NCBI RefSeq assembly: GCF_017948455.1
Contig: NZ_JAFFSU010000008.1
Coordinates: 248,001-312,000 of the forward strand
From: Streptomyces sp. GESEQ-4
GTDB taxonomy: Bacteria > Actinomycetota > Actinomycetes > Streptomycetales > Streptomycetaceae
Direction of reading: 5' to 3'
DNA: 64,000 nucleotides
This document shows positions 31,615 through 63,292 of the stretch, piece by piece; the first letter of the stretch is position 1; each line of letters opens with the position of its first letter. The position numbers and the translations under genes were made by a program. The notes beneath the pieces were generated by a model, which saw only the letters and a list, made by a program, of their open reading frames with translations, made no database searches and was not told where the DNA came from.

Positions 31615-32005
31615 TGTTCATGACCGCTTCTGACCAGCTGTGATCGCTGTCTTCTCGTTTCCGATCCGGGACCTGAGGCGTTAATCGGTCTGTCGTACGA
31701 AGCCTCATACCAGAGCGGGACGCTGCCCGTGGGAGTTTGTCAACTGCCCACCGCACCTGATGCACAGGCGACTACTGTGAGTGTCCGCTGGGCGACGCAG
31801 GGCCGAAGTCATCGGTTCTCTCGACCGGCATCGCGATGCCGTGGACGGATCAGGGAGCGGGGTCTGGCAGGTGGAGCTGCGAGGCGGCGGAGGGAGTCGA
31901 CGCCATGGGGTCACCCCTGACGTGACCGGCAGGGCCCGCGAAACCGGTGGCGGCCACGCGAAACCCCCTGGCAACCAGGCCCGACGGACCAGCACAAGGA
32001 CACCG
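31615..32005. other. 391-bp leader of the conservon operon
   Basis: After the terminator, the region to the CvnA start holds no recognised gene. The CvnA frame remains open upstream to 31781, but that part lacks family sequence and the best ribosome-binding site (AAGGA, 31996-32000) serves ATG 32006. TTGTCA at 31737 resembles a -35 box, but I found no well-spaced -10. Confidence 0.4.
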
Positions 32006-34315
32006 ATGTCTCAGCTCCGCGCACCGGCAGCACGCGCAGACCGCCGCGAGGGCGGCAGGCACGGGCGGCCGCCCGCCCGCCCCGTACCGGCGCTGCCCGA
32101 GACGCAGATACGGCCTCAACTCCTGCGTCTCGCCGTGCTCCCGCCGGTCGCGGTCGCCCTCAGCGCCAGCGCCGCTGTGCTGTTCACCGTGCGCTCCACC
32201 GGGGCGCAGCCCAGCCTCACCCTGTGGGGCGTGCTCGCCGGCGCGGTCTCGGTGACCTGCGTCGGGATCGCCATCGCCGCCGTGGCCGCCGACCGTGCCG
32301 CCAAGTCCGTGAGCGACCGGGTCGGCGCGCTGCGGCGGAGCAGCGCGCGCGGCGAGGCCGATCTGAAGGCCCTCGTCGAAGCGCTGCGGCGCGGCGAAGG
32401 ACCGCCCCAGCGCAAGCCGCGCAGCGGACCCCCCGATGACGCCGACGACTTCGAACTGCTCGCCGCCGACCTGGCCCACGCACACGACGCCGCCGTCACC
32501 GCCGTCGTCCAGGCCGCACAGCTGTCCAGTCAGGCGGGCAGCGAGCAGAAGCTGGAGGTCTTCCTGAACCTCGCCCGGCGCCTCCAGTCGCTGGTGCACC
32601 GCGAGATCTCCATCCTCGACGAGCTGGAGAACGAGATCGAGGATCCCGACCTGCTCAAGGGCCTCTTTCACGTAGACCACCTCGCCACCCGCATCCGGCG
32701 CCACGCGGAGAACCTCGCCGTACTCGGCGGCGCCGTGTCGCGCAGGCAGTGGAGCAACCCGGTCTCCATGACCGAGGTGCTGCGCTCGGCCATCGCCGAG
32801 GTCGAGCAGTACTCGCGCGTCAAGCTCGTGCCGCCGATCGACGGCACCCTGCGCGGGCACGCCGTCGCCGACGTGATCCATCTGCTCGCCGAACTCGTGG
32901 AGAACGCCACGGTGTTCTCCGCCCCGCACACCCAAGTCCTGCTGCGCGCCAACCTGGTCACCTCCGGGCTCGCGGTCGAGGTCGAGGACCGCGGACTCGG
33001 CATGCCCGTCGGTGAGCAGAGCAAGATGAACGCCCTGCTCGCCGACCCCGACCAGGTCAATGTGGCCAGCCTGCTCGCCGACGGCCGCATCGGGCTGTTC
33101 GTCGTCTCCCAGCTCGCCCGGCGGCACGGCATCAACGTCCGCCTGCAGAACAACATTTACGGCGGTGTCCAGGCCGTACTCGTCGTGCCGCAGGGGTTGT
33201 TGGGTACGCATCCGGGCGCGCCGGGAGTCGTACGGCCGTCGCAGGAAACCGGTGGTGGTGGGGGAGCGGCCGTTCCGGCACAGCAGCATCCGCGGCCGGT
33301 GTCGGCACCGGCACCGGCACGCGACGCGGGGCAGCAGCGGATCGTGCCCTCGGCGCCGACCGTCGTGCCGCCCCGGCAGGCTCCTCGGGCCGCCGCCCCG
33401 ATGCCGGACGGCGGCCCGCCGATGCCGTTGCCCGTGCGTGTCCACGAGGAGCGGCCCACTCCGGCCGAGGCACTGCCGGGCATCCGGCCCGAGGACCGTC
33501 CGCTCGTCGCCGAAAACACGGCCGCACCGCCCCTGCCGCGCACCGGCACCGTCCGCGGCACCATGGGCAAGCCCCAACTGCCCCGGCGCCGGGCCCAGGA
33601 ACACATCGCCCCCCAACTCCGCGACGGACCGGCCCCACGCCAGCAGGACACGGACCACCTCGTCGGCCACGACCCCGGCCTCATGGCGGCCTTCCAACGC
33701 GGCATCGGGCTCGCGGAGGCACAGCAGCACAGGGAGCCGGGCTACATGGAGTCGGGCCACATGGAGTCGCGCGACATGGATTCGGGCCGCATGGAGCCGG
33801 GCCACATGGAGTTGCGCGACGTGGGTTCGGGCCACGTCGAGTCGGGCCACTTGGAGTCGGCCCGCATGGAGTCGGGCCACGTGCAGTCGCGCTACACGGA
33901 CTCGGGCCGCATGGAGCCGGCGCACACGGACTCGGACCACAGAGACGTCCCGAACAGCAGCGCCTCCCTCTACATGGACTCGCCGCACATGGACTCACCA
34001 CACAGGGAGTCCCGGCGCACGGACGCCACGTCCCTGGAGACTCCGGGCACGGTGTTCGGACACAGGGATACCGGGCCACACACGGTGTCCGGCCACATGG
34101 AGTCGGCACACATGGAACCGGTACGCACCGAGCCGACGCGCCTCGCGTCGGCCCGACCCGATGCGTCCCACGCAGATGCCGAACCCATGACCAGGGCCCA
34201 CTCCATGGACGTACCGCCCATGGATCCGCCCCACACAACGGAAGCGCGCCGCGTGCCGCCCCGCTCGGACCAGCACACCACCACCCGGCACGACGGGAGC
34301 GCACCAGCCGGATGA
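32006..34315 (+). CDS. cvnA: CvnA: nitrate/sulfonate-sensor-like histidine kinase of a conservon
   Basis: The 769-residue membrane sensor has two helices near the N-terminus (about residues 40-60 and 72-92), then a cytosolic dimerisation region and a GHKL ATPase domain. The N box is ELVENATVFSAPHTQV and the G box EDRGLGMP. After about residue 400 follow a proline-rich linker and, from about 579, a run of pentapeptide repeats. CvnA kinases act with the roadblock protein CvnB, CvnC and the small GTPase CvnD in a membrane complex that resembles eukaryotic G-protein coupling. The signal is unknown. ATG 32006 has AAGGA 5 nt upstream. The stop overlaps the next frame (ATGA). Confidence 0.92.
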   Translation: MSQLRAPAARADRREGGRHGRPPARPVPALPETQIRPQLLRLAVLPPVAVALSASAAVLFTVRSTGAQPSLTLWGVLAGAVSVTCVGIAIAAVAADRAAKSVSDRVGALRRSSARGEADLKALVEALRRGEGPPQRKPRSGPPDDADDFELLAADLAHAHDAAVTAVVQAAQLSSQAGSEQKLEVFLNLARRLQSLVHREISILDELENEIEDPDLLKGLFHVDHLATRIRRHAENLAVLGGAVSRRQWSNPVSMTEVLRSAIAEVEQYSRVKLVPPIDGTLRGHAVADVIHLLAELVENATVFSAPHTQVLLRANLVTSGLAVEVEDRGLGMPVGEQSKMNALLADPDQVNVASLLADGRIGLFVVSQLARRHGINVRLQNNIYGGVQAVLVVPQGLLGTHPGAPGVVRPSQETGGGGGAAVPAQQHPRPVSAPAPARDAGQQRIVPSAPTVVPPRQAPRAAAPMPDGGPPMPLPVRVHEERPTPAEALPGIRPEDRPLVAENTAAPPLPRTGTVRGTMGKPQLPRRRAQEHIAPQLRDGPAPRQQDTDHLVGHDPGLMAAFQRGIGLAEAQQHREPGYMESGHMESRDMDSGRMEPGHMELRDVGSGHVESGHLESARMESGHVQSRYTDSGRMEPAHTDSDHRDVPNSSASLYMDSPHMDSPHRESRRTDATSLETPGTVFGHRDTGPHTVSGHMESAHMEPVRTEPTRLASARPDASHADAEPMTRAHSMDVPPMDPPHTTEARRVPPRSDQHTTTRHDGSAPAG
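33740..33934 (+). repeat. Thirteen tandem 15-bp repeats encoding pentapeptides in CvnA
   Basis: From 33740 the sequence repeats every 15 bp for 13 units, giving pentapeptides of consensus G/R-H/D/R-M/V-E/D-S/P (GYMES, GHMES, RDMDS, GRMEP, GHMEL and so on). More divergent units continue to about 34200 (LYMDS, PHMDS, PHRES; GHMES, AHMEP). Third positions and second residues vary, so the repeat is old or under selection rather than a recent slippage product. Confidence 0.85.
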
Positions 34316-34413
34316 CCACCACCGCAGACACCCCCCTGCCCAACGCCACCCCCACCCCCACCCCAACCCCCAGCGCTCCCGCAGACCTTCGTACCTCAAG
34401 GAGTCGATCCACC

Positions 34414-34848
34414 ATGGCGAGCGAAGCGCCGACCGGCCAGGTATCCGATCTCGACTGGCTGATGAGCGGCCTCGTGCAGCGCGTACCGCACACCAGCAGC
34501 GCGGTACTCCTGTCCTGTGACGGGCTTGTGAAGTCGGTCCACGGCCTCGACCCGGACAGCGCCGACCACATGGCCGCCCTGGCCTCCGGCCTCTACTCCC
34601 TCGGCCGCAGCGCAGGCGTCCGCTTCGGCGACGGCGGAGACGTGCGCCAGGTCGTCGTCGAACTCGACTCGACCCTGCTGTTCGTGACCACCGCCGGATC
34701 CGGCACGTGCCTCGCCGTGCTGGCCGGCCGTGAGGCCGACGCGGCGGTGCTCGGTTACGAGATGGCGATGCTGGTCAAGAGCGTCCGCCCTTACCTGATG
34801 ACCGCGCCCCGTCAGCACGCCGTCGAATCCACGGCGTTGAGGCCTTGA
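34414..34848 (+). CDS. cvnB: CvnB: roadblock/LC7 domain protein
   Basis: The 144-residue roadblock/LC7-fold protein begins MASEAPTGQVSDLDWLMSGL and covers the whole domain (LLSCDGLVKSVHGLD, LFVTTAGSGTCLAVLA). In conservons it is thought to modulate the CvnD GTPase. ATG 34414 follows AAGGAG by 10 nt and fits the usual CvnB length. The frame is open from ATG 34312, which overlaps the CvnA stop, but that would add a low-complexity Thr/Pro leader of 34 residues. Confidence 0.9.
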   Translation: MASEAPTGQVSDLDWLMSGLVQRVPHTSSAVLLSCDGLVKSVHGLDPDSADHMAALASGLYSLGRSAGVRFGDGGDVRQVVVELDSTLLFVTTAGSGTCLAVLAGREADAAVLGYEMAMLVKSVRPYLMTAPRQHAVESTALRP

Positions 34849-34850
34849 CC

Positions 34851-35222
34851 GTGGCGGCGGCCGGCGACGGGCCCTGGCTCGACGACGCGGCCGGTCGGCT
34901 GGTGCGCCCCTTCACGGTCAGCAACGGCCGCACCCGGCCCACTGTCGCGCTCGACCTCCTGTCGCAGGTGAGGGCCACCGGGGCCACCCCCCTCGGCTAC
35001 CTCGGCCCCGAGCACGCGCAGGCCCTCGACCTGTGCCGCGCGCCCGTTTCGGTCGCCGAGGTCGCCGCCCATCTGAAGCTGCCGGCGGTGGTCACCAAGG
35101 TGCTGCTGTCCGACCTCGTCGACTGCGGGGCCCTGACCACCAAGCCACCCGAGTTCCACCACAACCCCACTGACCGGGCCCTTCTGGAGGCAGTGCTCGA
35201 TGGACTACGACGACAGCTCTGA
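34851..35222 (+). CDS. cvnC: CvnC: DUF742 protein
   Basis: The 123-residue DUF742 protein has the WLDDAAGRLVRPFTVSNGR start and a winged-helix-like C-terminus (VSVAEVAAHLKLPAVVTKVL). In the conservon complex it links CvnB and CvnD. GTG 34851 lies 8 nt after GAGG. A TTG at 34845 overlaps the CvnB stop, but is only 2 nt from that site. Its end overlaps CvnD by 23 nt. Confidence 0.9.
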   Translation: MAAAGDGPWLDDAAGRLVRPFTVSNGRTRPTVALDLLSQVRATGATPLGYLGPEHAQALDLCRAPVSVAEVAAHLKLPAVVTKVLLSDLVDCGALTTKPPEFHHNPTDRALLEAVLDGLRRQL

Positions 35223-35817
35223 CTACGACGAGGGCGCCGACGCCTTCCCCACCGCGCTCAAGATCCTGGTGGCGGGAGGGTTCGGGGTCGGCAAGACGAC
35301 CTTCGTCGGCGCCGTCAGCGAGATCGCGCCGCTCAGCACGGAGGAGTTGCTCACCACGGTCAGCGCCGCGACCGACAACCTCGAAGGGATCGAGAACAAG
35401 GTCGAGACGACGGTGGCCATGGACTTCGGCCGCATCACCCTCGACCCGGAACATGTGTTGTACCTGTTCGGCACACCGGGACAGGAGCGGTTCTGGTTCA
35501 TGTGGGACGAGCTCTCCGAGGGCGCCCTCGGAGCGATCATCCTCGCCGACACCCGCCGACTGGAGGACTGCTTCGCCGCCGTCGACTTCTTCGAGCAGCG
35601 CGGCATGGGCTTCATCGTCGCGATCAACGAGTTCGACGGCTCCCACCGCTACGACCCCCAGGAGGTACGCGCGGCCATCGACCTCGACCCGGAGATCCCC
35701 GTCGTGCGCTGCGACGCCCGGATCTCCAGCTCCGGCGTCCAGACCCTGCTGACCCTCGTACGCCACCTCATCGCCCACGCCCCGGCCCCCGCGCCGAGCC
35801 ATGGCGCCCACATGTGA
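35200..35817 (+). CDS. cvnD: CvnD: conservon small GTPase
   Basis: The 205-residue Ras-like ATP/GTP-binding protein has the P-loop GGFGVGKTT (about residues 26-34), switch-II FGTPGQERFW and the NKxD equivalent INEFD. It is a cytosolic or membrane-associated switch, controlled by the CvnA-C proteins. It starts with an acidic stretch, MDYDDSSDYDEGAD. The length is normal for the family. Confidence 0.93.
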   Translation: MDYDDSSDYDEGADAFPTALKILVAGGFGVGKTTFVGAVSEIAPLSTEELLTTVSAATDNLEGIENKVETTVAMDFGRITLDPEHVLYLFGTPGQERFWFMWDELSEGALGAIILADTRRLEDCFAAVDFFEQRGMGFIVAINEFDGSHRYDPQEVRAAIDLDPEIPVVRCDARISSSGVQTLLTLVRHLIAHAPAPAPSHGAHM

Positions 35818-35876: not shown

Positions 35877-36455
35877 ATGAGCTACGACCCGCCGCGCCCG
35901 GCCGGTCGTCTGCTGCTCACGCCCGAGGACAAGGAGGCCCCCGCCCGGGCTGACCGGCTGCGTCGGCTGGGCCTGGGGGAGCGGACGGAGCCTGCCCTCG
36001 ACGCGTTCGCGGACGGTCTCGCCGAGCTGACCGCGGCGCCGTACGCCATGGTCAACTTCATCGACGAGAACCGGCAGTTCTTCGCGGGCCTGCATCTTCC
36101 CGCCATCGATCCGTTCGTGAAGGGCGACGGCACCACTGTGGAGTTCGGCCGCTCCCTCCCGCGCGACCATGGGTTCTGCCCCCATGTGGTGGTCCGCCGC
36201 AAGGCGCTCGTCCTGGAGGACGTCTGCGACTATCCGCGGTTCGCCGGCAACCCCGTCGTCGACGAGTTCGGCATCCGCTCCTATCTCGGCGCACCGCTCA
36301 TCGACCGCACGGGCATGGTGCTAGGCACCATCTGCGTCATCGACGTGGCACCGCGGCCCTGGGGGAGACCCGGCCTGGAGACCATCAAGTCGGCGGCGGC
36401 GGGTCTCGTCGCCCGGCTCGAGCGGCGGGAGGCCGACGGGCTTCCGGTGCTCTGA
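35877..36455 (+). CDS. GAF-domain protein associated with the conservon
   Basis: The 192-residue protein is almost entirely a GAF domain (about residues 35-185; AMVNFIDENRQFFAGL, SYLGAPLIDRTGMVLGTICVID), a small-molecule or redox sensor fold. No output domain is present, so it probably works by protein contact. ATG 35877 has GGAGTG 6 nt upstream. It follows cvnD by 59 bp in the same direction and is likely a fifth member of the conservon. Ligand unknown. Confidence 0.85.
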   Translation: MSYDPPRPAGRLLLTPEDKEAPARADRLRRLGLGERTEPALDAFADGLAELTAAPYAMVNFIDENRQFFAGLHLPAIDPFVKGDGTTVEFGRSLPRDHGFCPHVVVRRKALVLEDVCDYPRFAGNPVVDEFGIRSYLGAPLIDRTGMVLGTICVIDVAPRPWGRPGLETIKSAAAGLVARLERREADGLPVL

Positions 36456-42413: not shown

Positions 42414-42498
42414 GGAGTTCGAGCCCTTCTGTTGAGTCCGGAGTGGGGCGTGAGTTCGGCGGGGGCGTGCGTTCGGAGCGGGCGTGTGCGGGTGGCGC

Positions 42499-59254: not shown

Positions 59255-60811
59255 GTGGGTTTCAGAAGGCGGCACTGGGCGTCGGCGGCGGCATCGTCGG
59301 CGCTGGCCCTGCTGGCGGCGACCGGCTGTACGAGCACGCCGGACGACTCGGCGAAGCCTGCCGACGCGCCGCCCACGTCCGGTGCGCCGTCCACGTCCGG
59401 TGTGCCGTCCCCGGACGTGGCCCGGGTGTGCGCCAAGCCCGCCGCCGGGCCGGCGAAGGCACCGGCGGGCGCGGTGACCGTCGACCCCGCGGTGGTCGGT
59501 GACCTGGCGGCGAAGACCAAGAGCAGCCCTCCGAACACCACGTTCTGGCTTCGGCCGGGCACGCACCGGCTCGACCCGGACCGCTATGCCCAGGTGATCC
59601 CCAAGAAGGGGAACCGCTACCTCGGCGCGCCGGGCGCGGTGCTGGACGGCCGGAAGAAGAACCAGTACGCGTTCGGCGGCGGTGCCCCCGACGTCACGAT
59701 CCGCCACCTGACCGTGCAGGGTTTCGTCGCGCCGCACGACCAGGGCGTGGTCAACCATGACTCGGCCGACGGGTGGGTGATCGAGCACGCGACGATCCAG
59801 AACAACTCCGGTGCCGGGCTGATGGCCGGTGCCCGCCAGCAGGTCCGCGCCAGCTGTCTGCGCGACAACGGCCAGTACGGCATGAACGCGTACAAGGGCG
59901 GGGGCCGTATCACCGGCCTGGTGGTCGAGGGCAACGAGATCGTGGGCAACAACACCGACGACTGGGAGCGGCGGCGGGAGGGCTGCGGCTGCACCGGAGG
60001 CATCAAGTTCTGGGCCGTCAACGGTGCGGACATCCGCGGCAATTGGGTGCACGACAACCGTGGCACAGGGTTGTGGGCGGACACCAACAACAACGACTTC
60101 CGCATCGAGAACAACGTGATCGAGGCCAACGACGGTGCCGCGCTGATGTACGAGACCAGCTACAACGCGGTCATCCGGAACAACACGATCCGGCGCAACA
60201 ACTGGGTCGAGGGCCGCAAGTACACCGCCGGCGAGGACAACTTCCCGTTCGCGACCGTCTACCTGTCCGAGTCCGGCGGCGAACCACGGATCCGAGCCCG
60301 CACGGACAAGATCGAGATGTACCGGAACGTGCTGGAGAACAACTGGAACGGGATCACCCTGTGGGAGAACGCCGACCGGTTCTGCAACAGCCCGGCCAAC
60401 ACCTCGTCCGGTGACTGCACCTTGCTGGTGAAGAAGACCGACCGCTGCGCGAAGCCGGCGATCGCCAAGCCACCGCTCTACGCCGACTGCCGGTGGAAGA
60501 CCCAGCGGGTGGACATCCACGACAACCGCTTCGTGCTGGACACGTCCGTCGTCAAGTGCACGGTGAAGTGCGACCGCATGGCGGTGCTGTCCAACTACGG
60601 CACCTATCCGGACTGGTCGCCGTACCAGGGCGAGAAGGTGGCTCAGGCGATCACCCACAAGCAGGACAACCGCTGGCACGACAACGTCTACCTCGGACCG
60701 TGGAAGTTCGTCGTCCAGGACCAGAGCCGGCTGATCGACTTCGCGCAGTGGCAGGGGAAGAGCTACCGGCAGGACGCGGGGAGCACCCTCGACGCACAGG
60801 CCGGTGGTTGA
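59255..60811 (+). CDS. Right-handed beta-helix lipoprotein
   Basis: The 518-residue protein has a signal peptide with a lipobox (LLAATGC, cysteine near residue 25) and a Pro/Ser/Thr-rich linker. A right-handed parallel beta-helix follows (about 95-440), with typical turns such as NGADIRGNWVHDNRGTGL and ENNVIEANDGAALMYE. Such helices occur in lyases, epimerases and depolymerases of uronic-acid polymers (PL6, AlgG-like). Catalytic residues were not assigned. It should be anchored outside the membrane. Several cysteines in the C-terminal part (DRFCNSPAN, GDCTLLVKK, KCTVKCDR) may form disulfides. GTG 59255 follows GGGGGG. Confidence 0.82.
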   Translation: MGFRRRHWASAAASSALALLAATGCTSTPDDSAKPADAPPTSGAPSTSGVPSPDVARVCAKPAAGPAKAPAGAVTVDPAVVGDLAAKTKSSPPNTTFWLRPGTHRLDPDRYAQVIPKKGNRYLGAPGAVLDGRKKNQYAFGGGAPDVTIRHLTVQGFVAPHDQGVVNHDSADGWVIEHATIQNNSGAGLMAGARQQVRASCLRDNGQYGMNAYKGGGRITGLVVEGNEIVGNNTDDWERRREGCGCTGGIKFWAVNGADIRGNWVHDNRGTGLWADTNNNDFRIENNVIEANDGAALMYETSYNAVIRNNTIRRNNWVEGRKYTAGEDNFPFATVYLSESGGEPRIRARTDKIEMYRNVLENNWNGITLWENADRFCNSPANTSSGDCTLLVKKTDRCAKPAIAKPPLYADCRWKTQRVDIHDNRFVLDTSVVKCTVKCDRMAVLSNYGTYPDWSPYQGEKVAQAITHKQDNRWHDNVYLGPWKFVVQDQSRLIDFAQWQGKSYRQDAGSTLDAQAGG

Positions 60812-62071: not shown

Positions 62072-63292
62072 ATGCACGTCCTCGTGGTGCACAACCGCTA
62101 CGCCTCGGCGCAGCCGAGCGGGGAGAACAAGGTCGTCGACCAGGAGGTGGAACTGCTGCGCGCGGCCGGCCACCGGGTCGACCTGTTCGAGCGGCGCAGC
62201 GACGACATCGCCGCCCGGTCCCTGCTCGGCAAGGTCGCGGTGCCGCTGCTCGTGCCGTGGAACCCCGGGGTCCGCACGGAACTCACCGCCCGGCTGCGCG
62301 CCGACCGGCCGGACGTGGTCCACGTCCACAACGTCTTCCCGCTCCTGTCGCCCGCGGTCCTGGCCGCCTGCGCCGACGCCGGAGTGCCCGCCGTCGCCAC
62401 CCTGCACAACTACACCCAGGTCTGCCCGCCCGGCACGCTGCAGCGGGACGGCCGGCCGTGCACGGAGTGCGTCGGGTCGACGCCGCTGCCGGCCGTCCGG
62501 CACGGCTGCTACCGGAACTCCCGCCTCGCGACTGTGCCGCTCGCGGTCAGCCTGTCGGTCAACCGGCGGCGGTGGTGGACCGGCGTCGAGCGGTTCTTCT
62601 GCATCTCCGCGGCACAGCGCGACGTCCTGGTGTCGGCCGGCATGCCGGCCGAACGCCTTGCGGTGAAGCACAACTTCGTGCCCGACCCGGACGACCGCCG
62701 GTCGGGCGAGGGCGAGCATCTGCTCTATCTCGGCCGGCTCGCGGAGGCCAAGGGCATACGCCTGCTCATGGCCGCGTGGGACGAGGTCGCGGCGAGCGGC
62801 GGGGTGGGCGTACCGCTCGTGATCGCCGGCACGGGGCCACTGGAGCGAGAGGTGACCGCCTGGGCGGCGGGCCGGGACGACGTGCGCTACGTCGGCCTGC
62901 TGGACCCGGCGGAGTGCCGGAAGGCCGTCGCGCGGTCCGTCGCCGTGGTGGCTCCCTCGACCTGGCTGGAGGCGTTCGGCCTGGTGGTCGTGGAGGCGAT
63001 GGCGGCGGGGGTGCCGACCGTCGCCGCCGGTCACGGCGCCTTCGTCGAACTGGTCGAGGACGGGGTGACCGGGCTGCTGCACCGGCCGGGGGAGTCGGCC
63101 TCGCTCGCGGACCGCATACGCCGGATCGCGGCCGAGCCGGCCCGGAACCGGGAGATGGGCGAGGCGGCCCGGCGCCGCTACGAGCGGGACTTCAGCCCGG
63201 CCGTCGGGCTGGAGCGCCTGCTGGAGGAGTACCGCACCGCGATCGCGGGTCGGTCGGAATCAATGGGGGACGGAATCAATGGGGGGCAGTAG
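62072..63292 (+). CDS. Family 4 glycosyltransferase
   Basis: The 406-residue GT-B enzyme has MHVLVVHNRYASAQPSGENK and DVVHVHNVFPLLSP in the acceptor domain, and LLYLGRLAEAKGIRLLM and PSTWLEAFGLVVVEAMAAGV in the donor domain. The last holds the E-x7-E pair. A cysteine-rich loop, CPPGTLQRDGRPCTECVG, is characteristic of one GT4 subgroup. Sugar and linkage are unknown. It starts 2 nt after the ligase stop and ends directly at the methyltransferase. Confidence 0.92.
   Translation: MHVLVVHNRYASAQPSGENKVVDQEVELLRAAGHRVDLFERRSDDIAARSLLGKVAVPLLVPWNPGVRTELTARLRADRPDVVHVHNVFPLLSPAVLAACADAGVPAVATLHNYTQVCPPGTLQRDGRPCTECVGSTPLPAVRHGCYRNSRLATVPLAVSLSVNRRRWWTGVERFFCISAAQRDVLVSAGMPAERLAVKHNFVPDPDDRRSGEGEHLLYLGRLAEAKGIRLLMAAWDEVAASGGVGVPLVIAGTGPLEREVTAWAAGRDDVRYVGLLDPAECRKAVARSVAVVAPSTWLEAFGLVVVEAMAAGVPTVAAGHGAFVELVEDGVTGLLHRPGESASLADRIRRIAAEPARNREMGEAARRRYERDFSPAVGLERLLEEYRTAIAGRSESMGDGINGGQ

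Follow-up and report, generated by a model that had tools for sequence, protein, structure and literature searches.

A variable His-Met pentad tail on a conservon kinase-like protein of Streptomyces

What holds the composition of a protein tail that is built from an unstable tandem repeat? The question is raised by cvnA, the gene of a sensor-kinase-like protein of Streptomyces sp. GESEQ-4, which lies in a stretch of 64,000 nucleotides (contig NZ_JAFFSU010000008.1 of assembly GCF_017948455.1, positions 248,001 to 312,000 of the forward strand), hereafter the window. CvnA ends in a run of pentapeptides (pentads) encoded by units of 15 base pairs (bp), preceded by a conserved box and, further upstream, by a variable linker. 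We suggest, with a probability of roughly 0.36, that this tail is a disordered, slippage-driven extension which is kept rich in His, Met and carboxylates, perhaps as an ion- or proton-responsive polyampholyte next to the conserved and putatively helical box.

The pentad array and its turnover among orthologues

Tandem Repeats Finder detected the array at 33728-33941 (period 15, 14.3 copies, 72% matches, 0% indels), and its score of 204 is the highest in the list for the window. Read in the cvnA frame, the array gives 15 pentads without a slip (HREPG, YMESG, HMESR, DMDSG, RMEPG, HMELR, DVGSG, HVESG, HLESA, RMESG, HVQSR, YTDSG, RMEPA, HTDSD and HRDVP), and the consensus is a soft one, with His in 8/15, Met in 7/15, an acidic residue in 13/15 and Ser or Pro in 13/15. 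The tandem repeat search and the in-frame reading thus confirm the original prediction of a pentapeptide tail on a conservon CvnA, a family assignment that also agrees with the HATPase_c domain and the Roadblock, DUF742, GTPase and GAF genes that follow. The 13 perfectly phased units that it counted are right within two, and its coordinates (33740-34240) began about 12 bases late and took in the weaker runs. That His and Met recur at fixed places is, by these counts, no more than half true for this strain. The tail does not belong to the pentapeptide-repeat family of Pfam, since HATPase_c is the sole Pfam match in CvnA at E 0.001, with no match to the pentapeptide-repeat profile and no secondary structure in the modelled tail. 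Proteins of that family form a beta-helix, and the likeness is limited to the five-residue period.

The part of CvnA that follows the box comprises about 197 residues, is bounded by the conserved box and a conserved gene end, and has a net charge of -14 with His excluded. In the window strain six pairs of His lie five residues apart (lag 5), against 1.6 in composition shuffles (p 0.005). The idea that the repeat is mobile or spread through the genome was rejected as unsupported: in a search of the host genome with the unit (up to 2 mismatches; 49 forward and 25 reverse matches, against 21 and 33 for a reversed-pattern control), cvnA was the sole place where units followed one another at a spacing of 15 bases, and the remaining matches were scattered. 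A three-unit pattern, which is strict enough to miss the array of the window itself, gave 16 matches in 8 of 246 Streptomyces genomes, and 14 of these (7 genomes) are cvnA tails by position. The other two matches, L153 and L148, lie outside cvnA and have at least three HM[DE] pentads in short open frames of doubtful coding status.

Orthologues were drawn from 135 loci (L009-L143), taken from a list of the best 80 matches and two lists of 30 loci, so that the sample favours close relatives; an orthologue occurs in 108 of the 246 genomes, and the sampled loci cover part of these. A motif search yielded 124 CvnA frames and none from L031-L038, L061, L076 and L110. Nine of the 124 lack the box string that was used (L022, L028, L050, L068, L078, L099, L100, L109 and L112); L100 has the variant HDPHLMAAF, and L112 ends in a run of TMEP/SMES-like units. 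After removal of cut and identical sequences, 97 distinct, complete and box-bearing tails remained, all from Streptomyces except L098 ('Actinobacteria bacterium'). At L031 (G005:C1:6713934-6715159) the orthologue is split into two pieces in different frames, by a frameshift or a sequencing error.

Summed over the 97 tails, His pairs number 468 at lag 5, against about 99.5 in shuffles, followed by 380 at lag 10 and 309 at lag 15, with only 45 at lag 4 and 51 at lag 6; these counts are not independent trials, because the tails share ancestry. The lag-5 signal is individually significant (p <=0.01) in 49 of the 97. When a His is called phased if another lies five residues away, at least four phased His are found in 56 of the 97 orthologues. 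Absence of the repeats from all close orthologues, which the original prediction had named as a sign of neutral slippage, is thus not what is observed. Mapped on the kinase-gene tree, this mark requires 14 changes, against 31.4 with shuffled labels. The deepest orthologues (L021, L023, L024, L026, L027, L029 and L030) have no phased-His arrays, and L025 carries another repeat. Copy number differs sharply between tree sisters (17 phased His in L015 vs 2 in L087; 5 in L075 vs 23 in L080). Indels whose length is a multiple of five residues, as expected from 15-bp slippage, make up 32 of 75 in the tail, against 14 of 111 in the linker, among 42 disjoint close pairs. Within a large clade of Streptomyces, copies of the repeat arise, disappear and mutate quickly. 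Different tandem repeats, namely PEQYVQEQHA, LTDMG, RPEPYGS and TPAHG (in L025, L049, L018 and L014), were seen at the same place in the tail, so that the site itself seems prone to the birth of repeats.

Replacement of residues in the tail

Pooled over 252 overlapping pairs with a synonymous divergence (dS) of the kinase below 0.35, the ratio of nonsynonymous to synonymous differences per site (pN/pS) rises from 0.163 for the kinase and 0.306 for the box to 0.697 for the linker and 0.708 for the tail, so that the tail as a whole is only weakly held. Its residues are, however, replaced at unequal rates. Across the 42 disjoint pairs, the tail residues with the lowest fraction replaced are H (0.239), D (0.263), E (0.272) and M (0.298), followed by P (0.330), T (0.355), G (0.380), A (0.382), Q (0.403), S (0.426), R (0.435), L (0.438) and V (0.484). 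The first part of the linker, which served as the control region, has these four residues at the fast end (E 0.485, D 0.516, H 0.528 and M 0.632, together with S 0.505 and T 0.508), while the others are replaced less often (G 0.250, P 0.251, R 0.320, L 0.327, Q 0.342, A 0.363 and V 0.368). Taken together, H, M, D and E were replaced at 501 of 1903 sites in the tail, against 1407 of 3503 for A, S, G, T, R, V and L; the corresponding counts in the linker are 258 of 498 and 1425 of 4097. The four were slower than the seven in 32 of 37 usable tail pairs and in 2 of 23 linker pairs. The pattern persists in blocks of at least 70% identity, both in the tail (H 0.16, M 0.18, D 0.09 and E 0.17 vs A 0.25 and S 0.31) and in the linker (H 0.22, M 0.38, D 0.30 and E 0.39 vs P 0.10 and G 0.12).

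When neutral evolution with slippage was simulated and its output passed through the aligner used for the data, observed replacement in the tail came to about half of the simulated value for H (0.52), M (0.51), D (0.49) and E (0.52), and to 0.67-0.81 for the other residues; with position-specific composition the ranges are 0.46-0.51 and 0.57-0.83. In the linker the four stand at 0.74-0.78 and the others at 0.50-0.84, with A, S and T held still less. The constraint on H, M, D and E relative to the rest of the tail is 0.64 (95% interval 0.58-0.71, bootstrapped over pairs) and stays within 0.64-0.66 under four settings. The most constrained class is that of acids two residues after a His (0.37). 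Base composition points the same way, as GC content in the tail is 0.58 at second and 0.87 at third codon positions, indicating that codons bearing A or T persist on a GC-rich background; this supports selection on content, yet it depends on the same signal.

His residues in phase are no better kept (0.55) than other His (0.46), so that content, and not the exact register, seems to be what is selected, judging from these alignments. A register-specific role of the repeats was accordingly rejected; it is not supported by the in-phase His, by the weak overall constraint or by the tails that are poor in His and Met. The interpretation in the original prediction is partly supported; the metal-binding or scaffold role that it put forward is a conceivable one, for which the low replacement rates of H, M, D and E in the tail speak.

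Evidence against the proposed reading and competing explanations

Several observations weigh against a tail that is kept for its His, Met and carboxylates. The tail does not have a lower pN/pS than the linker, and within the arrays the ratio reaches 0.78 when pooled. The units of the main array in the window differ by a pN of 0.30 and a pS of 0.10, an approximately three-fold nonsynonymous excess (the two short runs have the opposite pattern), and only 8 of the 15 pentads keep their His. Strongly supported branches of the kinase tree force at least eight gains or losses of the phased-His mark, and the short tails of L103, L115, L092 and L107 contain almost no His or Met. That phased His are not favoured over others is itself unhelpful to this reading. 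The simulated distance affects how strong the constraint appears in absolute terms: when it is shortened, the other residues rise to 1.11 and phased His to 0.84, though the ratio is still 0.66. In distant random pairs of tails, the matching of His and acids slightly exceeds that of G, T, S and R but not that of P or A, and Met has no advantage, which suggests that part of the residue signal may be alignment; a control with rotated tails was invalid, since rotated tails still align to their homologues, and was discarded. The structure model, described below, is poor, and an input for CvnA proteins that have no sensor domain has already been published in the form of CvnF (PMC13343842, in the passages covered).

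Much of this would follow from nearly neutral slippage, in which a dispensable disordered extension tolerates 15-bp copy changes and its His, Met and acid content is inherited from slowly decaying ancestral units. The equal pN/pS of tail and linker (0.71 vs 0.70), the value within arrays, the nonsynonymous excess in the main array, the contrasts between sisters, the lineages with few or no repeats and the occupation of the same site by PEQYVQEQHA, LTDMG or RPEPYGS elsewhere are all in line with it. Against it stand the low replacement of H, M, D and E, half of what the neutral simulation gives, with other residues at about 0.7-0.8 and no favour for the four in the linker, as well as the gap between second- and third-position GC. 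Codon changes of the same transition type in the tail likewise favour the silent form for acids (GAC-GAT 16 vs GAC-AAC 2; GAG-GAA 15 vs GAG-AAG 1) and for His (CAC-CAT 27 vs CAC-TAC 14), but not for Ala (GCC-GCT 8 vs GCC-GTC 8 and GCC-ACC 27). All of these counterpoints rest on the alignment of repeats or on a simple mutation model, and we regard neutral slippage as the strongest of the alternatives, doubtful though it appears.

Another explanation is a multivalent docking tail, whose short repeated motifs bind CvnB, CvnC, CvnD, the GAF protein or some other cytoplasmic partner, with the number of repeats setting avidity. The tail adjoins a conserved box with a predicted helix, the neighbours in the operon are kept in 67-68 of 68 loci, and acids at His+2 are the most constrained class, all of which would suit such a tail. 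However, docking should preserve register and sequence, yet His in phase is not better kept, Met follows His in only 39% of the phased units (in tails with at least six units), and a paralogous CvnA, L160, has the box without the repeats. A docking role therefore seems improbable. A plain acidic and disordered spacer, in which hydrophilicity and net charge are what is kept while His and Met are passengers, agrees with the negative charge, with the lack of predicted secondary structure and with Asp and Glu being kept as well as His. It is weakened by the hold on His (0.52) and Met (0.51), which is as strong as that on the acids and is not predicted by charge alone, and we consider it quite unlikely.

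Finally, an element of DNA or RNA (an operator array, an RNA structure or an overlapping gene) located within cvnA by coincidence is hardly credible: although the ATG overlap and the low synonymous change at the gene end indicate that DNA-level signals are probably nearby, the units vary within and between species, the array folds in an ordinary way (z -0.39), CvnA has the lowest tail pN/pS of the six frames (0.65 vs 0.77-1.15), and, among the 48 tails with at least six phased His, each alternative frame stays open from end to end in only 7 to 23.

The box, the conservon locus and possible functions of the tail

The immediate surroundings of the tail are listed in Table 1. The box contains 17 invariant columns among 35 orthologues, from P523 to A570. 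It is common (LPRRRAQEHIAPQLR...HDPGLMAAFQRG) to the orthologues and to the GAF-linked paralogous CvnA L160 of the same genome, which is 62% identical in the kinase part and ends 13 residues past HDPGLMAMFRRGIDLA without repeats. Three further CvnA paralogues of this genome (L161-L163) have degenerate forms of the first half of the box at their ends. No mention of the box was found in the covered passages of the conservon literature. An AlphaFold2 model built from 35 sequences gives a predicted local distance difference test score (pLDDT) of 84 at residues 561-570 and of only 38-47 at residues 521-550; residues 577-766 are nearly all below 50 and have no secondary structure, suggesting that the tail is disordered. 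The model is poor overall, with a mean pLDDT of 54, a predicted template modelling score (pTM) of 0.32 and pLDDT values of 50-70 over a large part of the kinase, and thus provides weak evidence for disorder. The box may possibly be a docking or autoregulatory helix, and a predicted helix beside an unstable tail would be a plausible place for regulation.

Table 1. Features of the cvnA locus (positions in the window)
Feature	Position	Strand	Basis or remark
cvnA, sensor-kinase-like protein	32006..34315	+	769 aa
Two hydrophobic stretches of CvnA (about residues 39-62 and 70-99)	32120..32302	+	hydropathy
Variable Pro/Ala/Gly-rich linker of CvnA	33209..33571	+	
Conserved C-terminal box (LPRRRAQEHIAPQLR ... 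HDPGLMAAFQRGIGLAEA), predicted helix at residues 557-575	33572..33730	+	
Main 15-bp tandem array, 15 pentads, consensus H-M-E-S-G	33728..33952	+	Tandem Repeats Finder and reading frame
Second, shorter pentad run (YMDSP HMDSP HRESR)	33972..34008	+	Tandem Repeats Finder
Third pentad run (SGHMES AHMEP)	34077..34116	+	Tandem Repeats Finder
Gene end GGGAGCGCACCAGCCGGATGA (DGSAPAG, stop), overlaps ATG in the cvnB frame	34295..34315	+	
cvnB, Roadblock/LC7	34414..34848	+	AAGGAG upstream of start
cvnC, DUF742	34845..35222	+	Pfam
cvnD, small GTPase	35200..35817	+	Pfam ATP_bind_1
GAF-domain gene, cvnF position	35877..36455	+	GAF E 1.9e-16

In most of the examined loci cvnA ends in DGSAPAG or a close form, and its stop overlaps an ATG that is open into cvnB. 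Synonymous change is low in the last 30 codons, where pS is 0.229 as compared with 0.437 for the tail. The genes of the outgroup loci L023 and L024 instead have AAGGAG at their end, right before cvnB. Translation from the ATG at 34312 would add a Thr/Pro-rich N-terminal extension to CvnB (region 34312-34414) in most examined loci, which is lost in L017. DGSAPAG was also considered as a conserved protein terminus of the repeat system, and this was rejected because the overlap in most loci makes a start signal of cvnB likelier; the gene end is probably such a signal.

The locus belongs to the conservons that carry an accessory gene of the CvnF type. Genes for Roadblock, DUF742 and GTPase proteins lie directly 3' of the gene for the HATPase_c kinase (domain at residues 289-395, E 1.2e-7), the GAF gene comes right after cvnD, and the loop between the two CvnA helices of the model (35-65 and 71-128) is very short. 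Relatives of cvnB, cvnC and cvnD are each present in 68 of the 68 loci with full flanks, and a relative of the GAF gene in 67. The gene order (kinase, Roadblock, DUF742, GTPase, GAF) and the short loop are those of CvnA/CvnF-type conservons, and the topology suggests that CvnA is without an extracytoplasmic sensor domain, the kinase and tail being expected in the cytoplasm. An in-frame GTG at 31781 would lengthen CvnA by 75 residues; the aligned orthologues begin at the same place as the 32006 start. The host genome (9.24 Mb) has two GAF-linked conservons, this one and L160, as candidates for the Cvn7 or Cvn8 type of S. coelicolor. Other short repeats of the window were observed at 42433-42486 (17 bp x 3.1), 59366-59410 (18 bp x 2.5) and 63255-63285 (16 bp x 1.9).

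According to the passages covered, conservons 7 and 8 have a GAF gene and CvnA7-13 are without extracellular sensor domains (PMC8510531), CvnF8 binds CvnA8 and stimulates its activity, and the sensing by CvnA is largely unexplored, with CvnF proposed as the input for CvnA proteins that have no sensor (PMC13343842). The repeat tail is a feature of the CvnA studied here, and no such tail was found described for conservon kinases in the parts of PMC13343842, PMC8510531 and PMC5859096 that were covered.

The nearest comparisons are analogies, as the tail may be likened in its working to the GHHPH region of histidine-rich glycoprotein (HRG) or to SilE and is not kin to either. In the passages covered, metal (Zn) and pH sensing are attributed to the tandem GHHPH-like motifs of HRG (PMC5372734), and deletions of 45 and 90 bp in its His-rich region lower nickel binding (PMC9822902). 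HRG and the CvnA tail have in common tandem pentapeptides that bear His and vary in copy number by multiples of 15 bp. However, HRG is a mammalian plasma protein whose unit has no Met and more His. SilE, as far as PMC5008109 was covered, is disordered until its repeated His- and Met-rich motifs bind silver, whereupon it gains helix. It differs in being periplasmic and in its motifs (MxxHxxxxxHxxMxx and HxxMxxxHxxMxx), whereas the CvnA tail has adjacent His and Met, a five-residue period and presumably a cytoplasmic location; the MxxH/HxxM spacing of SilE and PcoE was not found in it.

Under the proposed reading, 15-bp slippage would let tail length and copy number vary, and the tail would act as a length-tolerant cytoplasmic polyampholyte. 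Transition-metal ions or protons could bind to its densely placed His, Met and carboxylate side chains and change the charge or compaction of the tail beside the box. The kinase, or the access that it has to CvnB or the GAF protein, could be tuned in this way, while the number of repeats would set the capacity. A more specific version, in which the tail is an evolvable rheostat whose copy number sets the metal or acid sensitivity of a Ras-like G-protein pathway, as a second input beside the GAF partner, is rather unlikely.

A response to metal or protons is the leading but unproven idea for the His-Met pentad tail. If true, a kinase without a sensor domain would gain a second input beside its GAF partner. 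A tail that keeps His, Met and acids while its length and copy number vary freely is a concrete and deletable candidate input for CvnA, as well as a bacterial case of a copy-number-variable array of His pentapeptides. If only slippage is at work, the tail would show how far a signalling kinase of Streptomyces tolerates an unstable minisatellite.

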